Both the position numbers and the translations under genes were made by a program. The notes beneath the pieces are model-generated. The model saw only the letters and a list, made by a program, of their open reading frames with translations. It did no database searches and was not told the origin of the DNA. 64,000 nucleotides of DNA from Flaviaestuariibacter sp. (GTDB lineage: Bacteria > Bacteroidota > Bacteroidia > Chitinophagales > Chitinophagaceae): contig JAOQAI010000011.1 in the NCBI GenBank assembly GCA_025963645.1, positions 1 to 64,000 on the forward strand, written 5' to 3'. Positions 18,421 through 30,433 of the stretch are shown piece after piece. Numbering within the stretch: position 1 is the first letter of the stretch; each line of letters starts with the position of its first letter.

Positions 18421-19845
18421 ATGGAAATAATTCATGTATCAGCGGAATGCTACCCGGTGGCAAAGGCAGGTGGTTTGGGAGATGTGGTTGGGGCATTGCC
18501 TAAATACCAGGTTGAACTCGGACACAACGCAAAGGTGGTAATGCCGATGTACCGCACCAAATTTTTGTATAATAATAATTGGGACCTGGTGCATGAAGGC
18601 TACCAACAGCTGGGGTCGCAGCAGTTTAAATATGCTGTGATCCGTGAAAAAACAAATGTATTAGGGTTTGAGCTTTACCTCATTGATATCAACGGGTTAT
18701 TGGATCGTGAAAAAATTTACGGTTATGATGATGATACCGAACGTTTTTTGGCCTTCCAAATAGCTACTTGCGATTGGCTGTCTAAATGGGCGCACCAACC
18801 GGATATTGTGCATTGCCACGACCATCATACGGCACTGATGCCTTTTATGATGCAGTTTTGCCATGCTTTCAAGCATCTTGGAAGAATACCCACTGTCTTT
18901 ACAATTCATAACGCACAATACCAGGGGTGGATTGACTGGAACAAGCAGGCTTTATTGCCACCCTTCGACAGCTGGAAATGGGGCTTGCTGGATTGGGATA
19001 AAACCATTAATCCATTAGCCTGTGCTATCAAATGTGCGTCGAAGGTGACAACCGTAAGTCCCAGCTATATGGAAGAACTGCGGTATGCAGCCAATGGATT
19101 AGAAAATTTGATGCAATATGAAAGAGGTAAAAGCGTCGGCATTTTAAATGGGATTGATGCCGATGTCTGGAACCCGCAAAGCGACAATTTCATTGCAAAG
19201 AATTATGATGACCATGCCGTGAAGGAAGGCAAGCGGAAAAATAAGAAAGAGCTATGCGGGCAATTCGGTCTGGATGAAGACAAGCCGCTGATCGTTTTTA
19301 TTGGTCGCCTGGTAGGAGAGAAGGCTGCGGATATTTTGCCGGATGCCATTCGCAACTCTACTTACCAGCATCGTGGGGCGGCTAATTTTTTGGTGTTGGG
19401 CTCGGGCGAAAGTGAGGTAGAGAATAACCTTGAGCACGTTAAGAATCAATTGCACGGTTATGTGAACACTTATATCGGCTACAACGAAACGCTCAGCCAT
19501 TTAATGTATGCTGGCGCAGATTTTTTATTAATGCCCAGCCGCGTTGAGCCTTGTGGACTGAACCAGATGTATGCCCTTCGTTATGGAACCGTGCCCATGG
19601 TTCGTAGCACAGGAGGTTTAAAAGATACGGTGAAGGATTTTGGGGATTGGCAAGGCTATGGCATACGGTTTAATAATGCAACAGTGCCGGACATTACACA
19701 TTCCGTTGGGCGTGCTATTGACCTCTACAATAATAAACGTGACCTGTATAACTGGATGCGCAGCTATATGATGAATATTAATTACTCCTGGGATGCCTCG
19801 GCGGAGGAATACATCAAGCTTTATGAGAATTTAATCGAAAATTGA
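18421..19845 (+). CDS. glgA: Glycogen synthase
   Basis: A 474-residue GT5 glycosyltransferase that extends alpha-1,4-glucan chains from ADP-glucose. The N-terminal KAGGLGDVVGALP (15-27) binds the nucleotide sugar, HCHDHHTAL (about 134-142) is typical of bacterial GlgA, and the C-terminal SRVEPCGLNQMYALRYGT segment carries the conserved glutamate. The length is normal. The last codons and stop (GAA AAT TGA) form the first part of a heptamer array that precedes the inserted four-helix-bundle ORF, so the end of glgA has been moulded by, or used as, the repeat. It begins the rightward glycogen locus. Confidence 0.96.
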   Translation: MEIIHVSAECYPVAKAGGLGDVVGALPKYQVELGHNAKVVMPMYRTKFLYNNNWDLVHEGYQQLGSQQFKYAVIREKTNVLGFELYLIDINGLLDREKIYGYDDDTERFLAFQIATCDWLSKWAHQPDIVHCHDHHTALMPFMMQFCHAFKHLGRIPTVFTIHNAQYQGWIDWNKQALLPPFDSWKWGLLDWDKTINPLACAIKCASKVTTVSPSYMEELRYAANGLENLMQYERGKSVGILNGIDADVWNPQSDNFIAKNYDDHAVKEGKRKNKKELCGQFGLDEDKPLIVFIGRLVGEKAADILPDAIRNSTYQHRGAANFLVLGSGESEVENNLEHVKNQLHGYVNTYIGYNETLSHLMYAGADFLLMPSRVEPCGLNQMYALRYGTVPMVRSTGGLKDTVKDFGDWQGYGIRFNNATVPDITHSVGRAIDLYNNKRDLYNWMRSYMMNINYSWDASAEEYIKLYENLIEN

Positions 19846-19865
19846 GAATGGAAAATGGAGAATTA
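19838..19865 (+). repeat. Left heptamer array of the four-helix-bundle cassette
   Basis: Four 7-bp units (AAAATTG, AGAATGG, AAAATGG, AGAATTA) span the glgA stop codon and end at the first base of the next ATG. Bases 19847-19864 match the reverse complement of 20223-20240 at 17 of 18 positions, giving a near-perfect inverted repeat around the ORF. Confidence 0.8.
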
Positions 19866-20224
19866 TGCGAAAGCCTAATGTTCTGAAAGATAAAAGTTTT
19901 GCATTCGCTTTGAAGATAGTTTCCTTATATAAAACACTACAGAATGAATACAAGGAATTTGTTCTTTCGAAACAGGTTTTGCGAAGCGGAACAGCTATCG
20001 GTGCCATGATAAGAGAATCAGAGAATGCCGCCAGCTTAAAAGATTTTTTAAATAAATTGACGATTGCTTTGAAAGAAGCAGATGAAACCCAGTACTGGCT
20101 TGAGCTGCTCTTCCAATCCAATTATATTCCTGATGCAGCTTACAAATCTTTGCATGAGGATTGCAGTGAACTTATTAGTATTTTAGTTGCAAGTGTAAAA
20201 ACAGTCAAAGAGAAAGTTATATAA
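19865..20224 (+). CDS. Four-helix-bundle protein (S23 / 23S rRNA IVS-encoded type)
   Basis: A 119-residue helical protein of the S23 four-helix-bundle family. Family hallmarks are the basic first helix (KDKSFAFALKIVSLYKTL), VLRSGTAIGAMIRESENAAS (43-62) and a later ADETQYWLELL (about 77-87). Members are encoded in intervening sequences of 23S rRNA genes in several bacteria and also occur as free-standing copies in Bacteroidota; no biochemical role is settled, and RNA binding is only suggested. Here the ORF interrupts glgA and glgC and is framed exactly by inverted heptamer arrays, its ATG at the end of the left arm and its stop inside the right arm. Confidence 0.88.
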   Translation: MRKPNVLKDKSFAFALKIVSLYKTLQNEYKEFVLSKQVLRSGTAIGAMIRESENAASLKDFLNKLTIALKEADETQYWLELLFQSNYIPDAAYKSLHEDCSELISILVASVKTVKEKVI

Positions 20225-20258
20225 TTCTACATTTTCCATTTTAAATTCTCCATTCGAT
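20223..20258 (+). repeat. Right heptamer array of the cassette, upstream of glgC
   Basis: ATT-initial units start at 20224, 20231, 20238, 20245 and 20252, an exact 7-bp period, and end at the glgC ATG (20257). The array overlaps the stop codon of the four-helix-bundle ORF and is inverted relative to 19838-19865. Confidence 0.8.
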
Positions 20259-21525
20259 GAAAGAGATGGTCTCCATTATTTTAGGCGGCGGTGCCGGTAC
20301 GCGTTTATCACCATTAACGGCGAACCGTTCAAAGCCGGCCGTGCCGATTGCAGGTAAATACCGCCTGGTAGATATACCCATTTCAAATTGTCTTAATTCA
20401 GGGGTGAGCAGGATGTTTGTATTAACCATGTACAATTCCGCTTCGCTCAACCGGCATATAAAGAACACGTATCATTTTAGTGCATTCAGCAATGCGTTTG
20501 TAGATATTCTGGCAGCGGAACAGACGCCGGATAATTTTACCTGGTTTCAGGGAACAGCCGATGCGGTGCGACAAGGCTTGCGGCATGTGCGTCCCTTTCA
20601 GTGCGAGTACGTGTTGATCCTTTCCGGCGATCAATTGTACCAATTGGACTTTGTGGAAATGCTGCGGGAGCATAAGGAGAGAGGTGCTGATATTACGATT
20701 GCTACCATCCCGGTTACGGCGAAAGAAGCTTCTGAATTTGGCATTCTAAAAACAGAAGATGGGTATATCCATTCGTTTACGGAAAAACCCAAATCCGGAC
20801 TGGAAGATTGGGTAAGTGATACCGGTGAAGAAATGCTAGCGCTTGGCAGGAATTACCTCGCTTCGATGGGTATCTATATTTTCAACCGCGAGCTGCTGTT
20901 TGAATTACTGGAGGTGGAGAAAAAAGATGCTACGGATTTTGGAAAAGAGATCATACCGGAATCTATTGATAAGTACAAAGTGGCTTCTTACCAGTACGAG
21001 GGTTATTGGGAAGACATTGGAAACATCAAAGCCTTCTATGATGCTAATCTGGCGTTAACAGCGGACCTGCCTGCCTTTAATTTATTTGATAATGCTAAAG
21101 CGATCTACACCCGTGCACGGATGTTGCCCCCGGCAAAGATCAGCGGCACACGATTAGACAAAGCGCTTATTGCCGAAGGGTCAATCATAAACGCTTCGCA
21201 TATCGAAAACTCTATTGTCGGTATCCGTTCCCGCATCGGGCACGATTCGGTTATCATCGGTACATACTTAATGGGAAACGATTATTTTGAAACCCTGGAA
21301 GAGATCAAGAAAGCCCAGGAGAAAGGGCTTCCATCACTTGGCATTGGAAGCCGCTGCCATATTCAAAACGCCATCATTGACAAGGACTGCCGGATTGGCG
21401 ATGATGTGCGCATTAATGGAGGAACACATTTAGAAGATGGCGACCATCCGTTATTTACTATCAAAGATGGAATCGTTGTTATTAAAAAAGGCGTTGTCAT
21501 ACCCAATGGTTTCTCTTTGGGATAA
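20257..21525 (+). CDS. glgC: Glucose-1-phosphate adenylyltransferase
   Basis: A 422-residue ADP-glucose pyrophosphorylase, the committed step of glycogen synthesis. The nucleotidyltransferase signature IILGGGAGTRLSPL is at 7-20, SKPAVPIAGKYRLVDIP follows, WFQGTADAVRQ (about 96-106) contacts substrate, and FTEKPKSG is the glucose-phosphate loop. The C-terminal 130 residues form a left-handed beta helix (IVGIRSRIGHDSVIIG). It is regulated allosterically in most bacteria; effector residues cannot be assigned here. It is separated from glgA only by the inserted four-helix-bundle cassette. The start is fixed by the heptamer array that abuts it. Confidence 0.96.
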   Translation: MKEMVSIILGGGAGTRLSPLTANRSKPAVPIAGKYRLVDIPISNCLNSGVSRMFVLTMYNSASLNRHIKNTYHFSAFSNAFVDILAAEQTPDNFTWFQGTADAVRQGLRHVRPFQCEYVLILSGDQLYQLDFVEMLREHKERGADITIATIPVTAKEASEFGILKTEDGYIHSFTEKPKSGLEDWVSDTGEEMLALGRNYLASMGIYIFNRELLFELLEVEKKDATDFGKEIIPESIDKYKVASYQYEGYWEDIGNIKAFYDANLALTADLPAFNLFDNAKAIYTRARMLPPAKISGTRLDKALIAEGSIINASHIENSIVGIRSRIGHDSVIIGTYLMGNDYFETLEEIKKAQEKGLPSLGIGSRCHIQNAIIDKDCRIGDDVRINGGTHLEDGDHPLFTIKDGIVVIKKGVVIPNGFSLG

Positions 21526-30267: not shown

Positions 30268-30295
30268 GTTTTCAGTTTATAGTTTGCAGTTTGCA
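30268..30295 (-). repeat. Heptanucleotide array upstream of ychF
   Basis: GTTT-initial units start at 30268, 30275, 30282 and 30289 (GTTTTCA, GTTTATA, and GTTTGCA twice), an exact 7-bp period beginning at the first base after the ychF start codon. It is inverted relative to 30399-30433. Confidence 0.78.
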
Positions 30296-30398
30296 AAATG
30301 TAATTCGTCAAAAGCGCTACATTGTACAAGCTGGTTTTTAGCGGCGGCAAAGATAGGCAAATAGGGGAAGGCGGAGTGATTAGAAATGAAGCCTTACC

Positions 30399-30433
30399 TT
30401 CAAACCATAAACCTTAAACTTCAAACTTTCTTA
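30399..30433 (+). repeat. Heptanucleotide array upstream of the SpmAB gene
   Basis: TTCAAAC, CATAAAC, CTTAAAC, TTCAAAC and TTTCTTA follow without gaps and end at the first base of the ATG at 30433. It is the inverted partner of the ychF array, 103 bases away in the divergent region. Confidence 0.78.

Follow-up and report, generated by a model that had tools for sequence, protein, structure and literature searches.

The closest described relatives of the element studied here are the intervening sequences (IVSs) of 23S rRNA. In Coxiella burnetii, the IVS has a 28-bp terminal stem and an S23 open reading frame (ORF) in sense orientation, and tandem GACAGAT heptamers, whose copy number depends on the strain, lie just upstream of the S23 start codon (Warrier et al. 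2016, PMC4990558). RNase III cuts this IVS in vitro, and the same paper discusses the repeats in relation to RNase III cleavage, doubts that the protein is expressed, and states that, more than 25 years after 23S intervening sequences were discovered, their function and origin are unclear (PMC4990558). We examined an S23-type ORF that lies between glgA and glgC in a 64,000-nt stretch of DNA from Flaviaestuariibacter sp. (assembly GCA_025963645.1, contig JAOQAI010000011.1, positions 1 to 64,000; hereafter the window). We conclude that this feature, framed by two inverted heptamer arrays, is probably an IVS-type mobile cassette outside rRNA, in which an S23 oligomer would bind and read repeats of the form AGWNNNN and a separate enzyme would carry out the movement.

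Other described systems resemble the locus in part. REP/REPIN-RAYT systems (repetitive extragenic palindromes, their doublets and the associated tyrosine transposases) consist of small inverted repeats, solo copies derived from them and a single cognate protein gene with repeats on both sides; RAYTs are Y1-type transposases. The S23 elements are alike in their small inverted repeats, solo forms and flanked protein gene; they differ in that the repeat varies by locus and in that S23 is a helical bundle, for which we know of no catalytic site. Heptamer arrays of the TAACTGA type, which we take to be the short tandemly repeated repetitive (STRR) sequences, offer a further comparison. They are intergenic, often near start codons, and occur in cyanobacteria, Beggiatoaceae and some Bacteroidetes (MacGregor 2015, PMC4679880). 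Like the arrays here they are built from seven-nt intergenic units, but they have one fixed sequence, are mainly direct repeats and, in the accessible part of that article, have no reported link to S23 (PMC4679880). A resemblance of PF05635, the S23 family, to Avd of diversity-generating retroelements (DGRs) has already been noted (PMC10053308). Here the likeness lies in the fold (4dwl and a chain of 8ub7), and the differences are a sequence identity of about 11% and the lack of any match to the RVT_1 reverse transcriptase family in the draft genome of the host, which is 63% complete. We found no published link between free-standing S23 genes and heptamer arms in the open literature; subscription papers lay mostly outside that search and priority is unsettled.

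The ORF in the window matches PF05635 at 93.3 bits against a cut-off of 33.8, which places it in the S23 (23S_rRNA_IVP) family (Table 1). The left array runs in sevens across the last glgA codons and the TGA stop to the start of the ORF, and the right array follows at the S23 stop. Their longest ungapped inverted repeat pairs 19833-19866 with 20221-20254 (34 nt, 85% complementary). The first-pass annotation had described an S23-type ORF framed by inverted heptamer arrays between the two genes, with the glgA stop codon inside the left arm and 17 of 18 bases matching between 19847-19864 and the reverse complement of 20223-20240; all of this was confirmed. Inverted repeats scoring at least 14 number 4 in the window, two of them ordinary hairpins with 4-nt loops, versus 0, 0, 1, 1 and 0 in five Markov-shuffled windows, so the framing arms exceed chance. 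Between the arms, S23 is the sole ORF of its size on the coding strand, overlapped by a 96-codon antisense frame. In a Pfam search S23 matched only PF05635 and had no Y1 domain, and no transposase is encoded by the element.

The first-pass annotation had also likened the locus to a 23S IVS, with its ORF in the loop of a terminal stem, and this likeness proved stronger than it had stated, since the Coxiella IVS shares the sense S23 ORF between complementary arms as well as the heptamers ahead of the start codon (PMC4990558). Furthermore, GACAGAT, when rotated, becomes AGATGAC, which has the same AGWNNNN form as the units described here. The elements differ from the 23S IVS in that they reside in protein-coding operons, as at glgA-glgC, rather than in a 23S rRNA helix, in that they have many copies per genome, and in that their protein is under purifying selection. 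The window contains no Rfam match at gathering scores. Neither of two conserved 23S motifs was present in any of the 324 loci examined, and by these two motif searches none of the S23 genes among them lies in 23S rRNA.

We asked how widely S23 ORFs carry such arms. The draft genome of the host (2.57 Mb, an estimated 63% complete) has 12 PF05635 matches, and inverted heptamer-like arms, with units that differ among loci, were recognized by inspection at 11 of the 12. One match (L012) is a fragment and was dropped, while another that is short at its C-terminal end (L005) was kept; 9 of the resulting 11 loci pass a stricter ungapped score of more than 11, all with period 7, and the two that fail are L001, which scores 9 and by eye has an 8-mer unit, and L002, which scores 11. 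To these we added 81 S23 loci from relatives (29 + 52), mostly best-scoring matches rather than a random sample, giving a first set of 92 loci, of which 89 have flanks long enough for analysis. The second, named-genome set comprises the best 80 of 583 loci, mostly from Bacteroidota with some from other phyla, and 77 of them have usable flanks. Each locus was scored by the best inverted repeat between its two flanks and compared with a null of mismatched flank pairs.

In the first set, 70 of 89 loci score above the 95% null and 42 above the 99% null; among the best 80 of 583, the corresponding counts are 54 and 25 of 77. The tested loci are related and hence not independent observations, yet the excess is large, because chance alone passes 5%. 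The 70 loci of the first set match themselves at 0.53 at a lag of 7 nt and 0.49 at lag 14, against 0.24-0.28 at other lags except lag 8 (0.34), and their best lag is 7 in 54 loci, 8 in 14, and 6 and 9 in one each. Likewise, the 54 loci drawn from the best 80 of 583 show a lag-7 match of 0.58, with other lags apart from 14 at 0.24-0.28, and a best lag of 7 in 47, 8 in 6 and 5 in 1. Different S23 clades have different arm types, including GTTTGGR, GTGAATG and GTTGATAA units. Thus the architecture, inverted heptamer arms framing S23, is general and not a local oddity. The first-pass annotation had held that its idea would fail if other free-standing S23 ORFs lacked inverted heptamers; they carry them in both sets.

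The unit itself was characterized on flanks taken without regard to repeats, using 78 nt to the left and to the right of each of the 172 loci (92 + 80). At a spacing of 7, AG..AG was counted 328 times in left flanks and 67 times in right flanks, and CT..CT 43 times in left flanks and 313 times in right flanks, indicating that from either end the AG strand runs 5' to 3' into the element. On the left, AG..AG at spacings of 5, 6, 8 and 9 occurs 71, 74, 109 and 76 times, a three- to fourfold enrichment for spacing 7 over its neighbours. Among 114 left arms of period 7 or 8, polarity is inward in 91 and outward in 12. Of 97 period-7 loci, 76 could be phased on AG; in these, agreement within an array is 0.86 at A, 0.85 at G and 0.85 at the third position (mostly A or T), with the other four positions at 0.70-0.76. 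The number of units per array, counted in whole-period steps, has a median of 4.7. The arms also mirror one another beyond their shared unit: the mean score is 18.6, versus 13.4 when each arm is drawn on its own from the pooled frequencies of units. Per locus, p is below 0.05 in 41 of 115 and above 0.5 in 28 of 115, under a model that leaves local tandem duplication outside. Copying between the arms at the DNA level fits both this mirroring and the lack of a G.T excess reported below.

Controls tie the heptamer form to S23. A control list drawn from 464 kb of the host genome comprised 83 ATG-started, non-overlapped ORFs of 90-160 aa. Its top four flank-repeat scores (22, 19, 15 and 13) are those of its four S23 ORFs, and among the remaining 79 ORFs two score 11 and none higher; a fifth S23 ORF in the same 464 kb (L004) has no ATG codon and is thus off the list. 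GxxExxY (PF13366) ORFs of the host and related genomes have flanking inverted repeats above the 95% null at 20 of 28 loci and above the 99% null at 8 of 28, and these 28 loci show no 7-nt periodicity (lag-7 match 0.27, lag 9 0.32). Judged by these two controls, heptamer arms are a specific feature of S23. Along 360 kb of contig C10, a filter for heptameric inverted repeats picked out two S23 loci and one ORF-less hairpin, and we found no cargo other than S23 in heptamer arms there; the S23 locus at C10:288157 fell below this filter and was detected by the flank test.

Arm similarity was compared with protein identity across sites. We took sites as non-orthologous when their outer-flank alignment score was at background, which was checked for pairs of at least 40% identity. 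At such sites mean arm similarity is 0.17-0.18 at protein identities below 40%, 0.20 at 40-50%, 0.23 at 50-60% (n = 549), 0.42 at 60-70% (n = 46) and 0.49 above 70% (n = 13), and at orthologous sites it is 0.45 at 60-70% and 0.54 above 70%. When arms were permuted among loci, a test that leaves relatedness outside its model, the mean of 0.251 observed for the 608 non-orthologous pairs of at least 50% identity exceeded both the permuted mean (0.193) and the maximum of 2000 trials (0.210). Two loci of one genome (L144 and L154 in G003) have common arms, proteins 84% identical and unrelated surroundings. The repeat thus tracks the S23 clade at unrelated sites, indicating that arms and ORF move as one unit. 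Separately, one genomic site shared by two species holds different cassettes (L007 and L127), with a GTTTAAG 7-mer in one and a GTTCACTT 8-mer in the other and proteins 57% identical; these may be independent insertions or the product of replacement.

Conserved junctions show the element present, absent and reduced. Both glgA and glgC are present at 29 of 30 GlgC loci, and S23 lies between them in the host genome only. It is absent from all 28 other junctions, including that of the nearest relative (GlgC 91% identical), so an ancestral ORF with the same flanks in all relatives, which the first-pass annotation had named as the outcome that would speak against insertion, is not what we see. The comparison of junctions that it called for did reveal empty junctions in relatives, but not a precise empty site. 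The last residues of GlgA and the spacer sequence ahead of glgC are different in relatives; the arrays apparently took the place of the original glgA tail and spacer, and for this reason the insertion does not correspond to a clean cut-and-paste site. Two relatives have heptamers without the ORF at this junction: an ORF-less hairpin with 30-nt perfect arms directly after the glgA stop (G025, L029), and a long direct array of GTTTGAC heptamers (G014, L023).

At murD-ftsW, where 29 of 30 loci have both genes, the host genome has an intact S23 cassette (L003), G001 retains only short S23 remnants beside heptamer arrays, and in G003, G006, G007, G009 and G014 the junction has short heptamer inverted repeats that lack an ORF, or traces of such repeats; these are clear in G006 and G014, weaker in G003, G007 and G009, and recognized by eye only in G007. 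In 12 other loci of the 29 the gap is -4 to +18 nt. Upstream of korB, S23 is present in 7 of 30 loci and absent from 23, and at this site G010 has an S23 of its own, 47% identical and flanked by another type of unit. Because a single-protein tblastn might overlook diverged S23 genes, the three junctions were rechecked with a profile built from 92 S23 proteins, which returned the same loci and no others. The simplest reading of the ORF-less forms is loss of the ORF with the hairpin left behind; entry of an ORF into a pre-existing hairpin is a possible alternative. Terminal inverted repeats and insertion polymorphism, as required of a transposon, are both present, and the suggestion of the first-pass annotation that this is a small cassette that moves, or is propagated, with heptamer hairpins is supported by arms that follow the protein clade at unrelated sites and by presence and absence at junctions.

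The S23 protein is under purifying selection. The ratio of non-synonymous to synonymous difference (pN/pS) is 0.12-0.31 in 23 of 23 S23 pairs, with synonymous differences of 0.65-0.95 and non-synonymous differences of 0.09-0.24, and orthologous loci keep recognizable arms with their synonymous sites already close to saturation. An AlphaFold2 model of the window S23 (predicted local distance difference test score, pLDDT, 93.7) finds its best fold matches in 2rld (59% identical over 107 columns) and 2gsc, followed by Avd (4dwl) and then by the DGR-complex chains 8ub7 and 8ube. Template-modelling (TM) scores are 0.77/0.85 against 4dwl and 0.75/0.81 against the 8ub7 chain, so that the model predicts an S23/Avd fold. 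Both 2rld and 2gsc contain five chains, which we take to be pentameric assemblies, and Avd is a pentamer. Within the one reverse transcriptase family searched, RVT_1, there is no match in G007 (99% complete, 18 S23 matches), G009 (100%, 17) or G011 (95%, 10), and we rejected a general dependence of these elements on a reverse transcriptase. G005 has RVT_1 and no S23 match. A role for an RVT_1-type enzyme in some lineages is possible.

These observations can be assembled into a model of an IVS-type mobile cassette. The cassette would live mainly outside rRNA, in gaps between genes, and would consist of one S23 gene and two terminal inverted arrays of about five AG(A/T)NNNN heptamers reading inward. 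That the repeat sequence travels with the protein suggests that S23 reads it. S23, taken as a pentamer by analogy with its five-chain relatives and Avd, would most likely bind the arrays with about one unit per subunit and would thereby mark and pair both ends. An external mover would be required, because the cassette carries no recombinase and no reverse transcriptase; this could be a trans-acting enzyme, or the host's own replication or repair at the hairpin. The cassette would settle preferentially along the direction of host transcription, and loss of the S23 gene would leave an ORF-less heptamer hairpin. More tentatively, it is quite possible that S23 proteins are pentameric repeat-readers of widespread transposase-less cassettes, commonest, as far as seen, in Bacteroidota. 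Each clade would then read its own AGWNNNN variant, about one unit per subunit, with arms kept mirrored at the DNA level; 23S IVSs would be a few copies that landed in rRNA, and GxxExxY and DUF559 nucleases would run parallel cassettes with repeat grammars of their own.

Several results sit poorly with a mobile cassette or limit it. No target-site duplication was found and the glgA-glgC junction is imprecise, the spacer and glgA tail being different from those of relatives. No moving enzyme was identified. No near-identical copies were found at two sites, as the host's own copies are at most 46% identical and the best same-genome pair among the copies compared is 84% identical, and with synonymous sites near or at saturation this implies old or rare movement. 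Arms fail to exceed the 95% null at 19 of 89 S23 loci in the first set and at 23 of 77 in the named-genome set. Of 19 relatives, 6 have RVT_1, and these include the S23 carriers G003 and G006. The estimate of about five units per array, being taken in whole-period steps, is suggestive only.

A different account would place the module at the RNA level, as an mRNA stem with the ORF in its loop, on which S23 or RNase III acts to cut the host mRNA or regulate the gene, with mobility secondary. S23 is co-directional with both neighbours at 117 of 161 loci, versus 31 of 73 control small ORFs, and the region folded as RNA forms the outer stem (z = -2.87, with 1 of 100 shuffles as good), so a link to transcription persists; in vitro cleavage of the Coxiella IVS by RNase III (PMC4990558) also favours this account. 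Selection on an RNA stem, however, predicts a preference for wobble pairs, and G.T is not commoner than A.C among arm mismatches (61 versus 74, p = 0.30), leaving such selection unsupported. We consider an RNA-level module unlikely. Still less probable, in our judgement, is an element resembling a miniature inverted-repeat transposable element (MITE) or transposon that an ordinary transposase of the host moves and in which S23 is a passenger without any part in the movement. It would account for the terminal inverted repeats, the ORF-less forms and the presence and absence at conserved sites, and co-movement alone also yields part of the association between arms and clade. But ends fixed by one transposase would not be expected to vary by locus and follow the S23 clade, and a mere passenger gives no reason in itself to expect so strongly constrained a protein. 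That the heptamers are simple-sequence repeats, expanded by slippage in intergenic gaps where S23 lies by chance, is very improbable: slippage does not produce inverted, inward-facing, mirrored arms, such arms occur only at the four S23 ORFs among the 83 small ORFs, and the GxxExxY inverted repeats lack the 7-nt periodicity.

A repeat grammar that covaries with the protein makes binding of S23 to its arrays directly testable biochemistry, and offers a way to count and date such elements in any genome. The mobile cassette would also explain some heptamer hairpins of Bacteroidota as solo or decayed ends, and by their fold the products of free-standing S23 genes are tied to Avd, the accessory protein of DGRs.

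Table 1. Features of the S23 locus and of two ORF-less arrays elsewhere in the window.
Feature	Position	Strand	Detail
glgA, glycogen synthase, upstream neighbour	18421-19845	+	Pfam PF08323, E 2.5e-60
Left heptamer array (AGAATTT AATCGAA AATTGAG AATGGAA AATGGAG AATTAT)	19826-19866	+	Tandem Repeats Finder (TRF) period 7/14 at 19833-19863
S23/IVP four-helix-bundle ORF, 119 aa, ATG start	19865-20224	+	PF05635, E 1.3e-26
Right heptamer array, inverted relative to the left; AG strand is the minus strand and reads inward	20221-20256	+	
glgC, ADP-glucose pyrophosphorylase, downstream neighbour	20257-21525	+	Pfam PF00483 and PF25247
ORF-less heptamer hairpin, GTTTGGR units, 24-nt arms with 22 matches, 76-nt loop	2138-2261	.	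Between two minus-strand ORFs
Paired heptamer arrays, AGTTTGC-type left and reverse complement of AGTTTGA-type right	30269-30431	.	Between divergent ORFs

Two of the listed features are without an S23 ORF. Units of the type seen in the GTTTGGR hairpin flank S23 ORFs in G009, G012 and G014 (L132, L147 and L149). The paired arrays near 30 kb, which lie between what are presumably genes for a YchF-like GTPase and a membrane protein, have lag-7 matches of 0.72 and 0.56 and a best ungapped inverted repeat scoring only 9; they are probably a decayed ORF-less element.

Elsewhere in the host genome, one S23 gene (L006) adjoins gmk, and S23 also adjoins gmk in Flavobacterium columnare (PMC5524665). The GxxExxY loci have repeats of other types, for example CGCAAAGGCGCTAAG and TCTGAACCATGATT/TCTGAACTGGGAT (L063-L067, L158-L169, L172-L176, L178-L182 and L184). 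DUF559 (PF04480) ORFs lie between inverted repeats as well, with 36-nt arms of 35 matches (CCTCACCCTAACCCTCTCC) at L073 and 26-nt arms of 23 matches at L072, and an ORF-less copy of the L073-type repeat is found at C10:173151.
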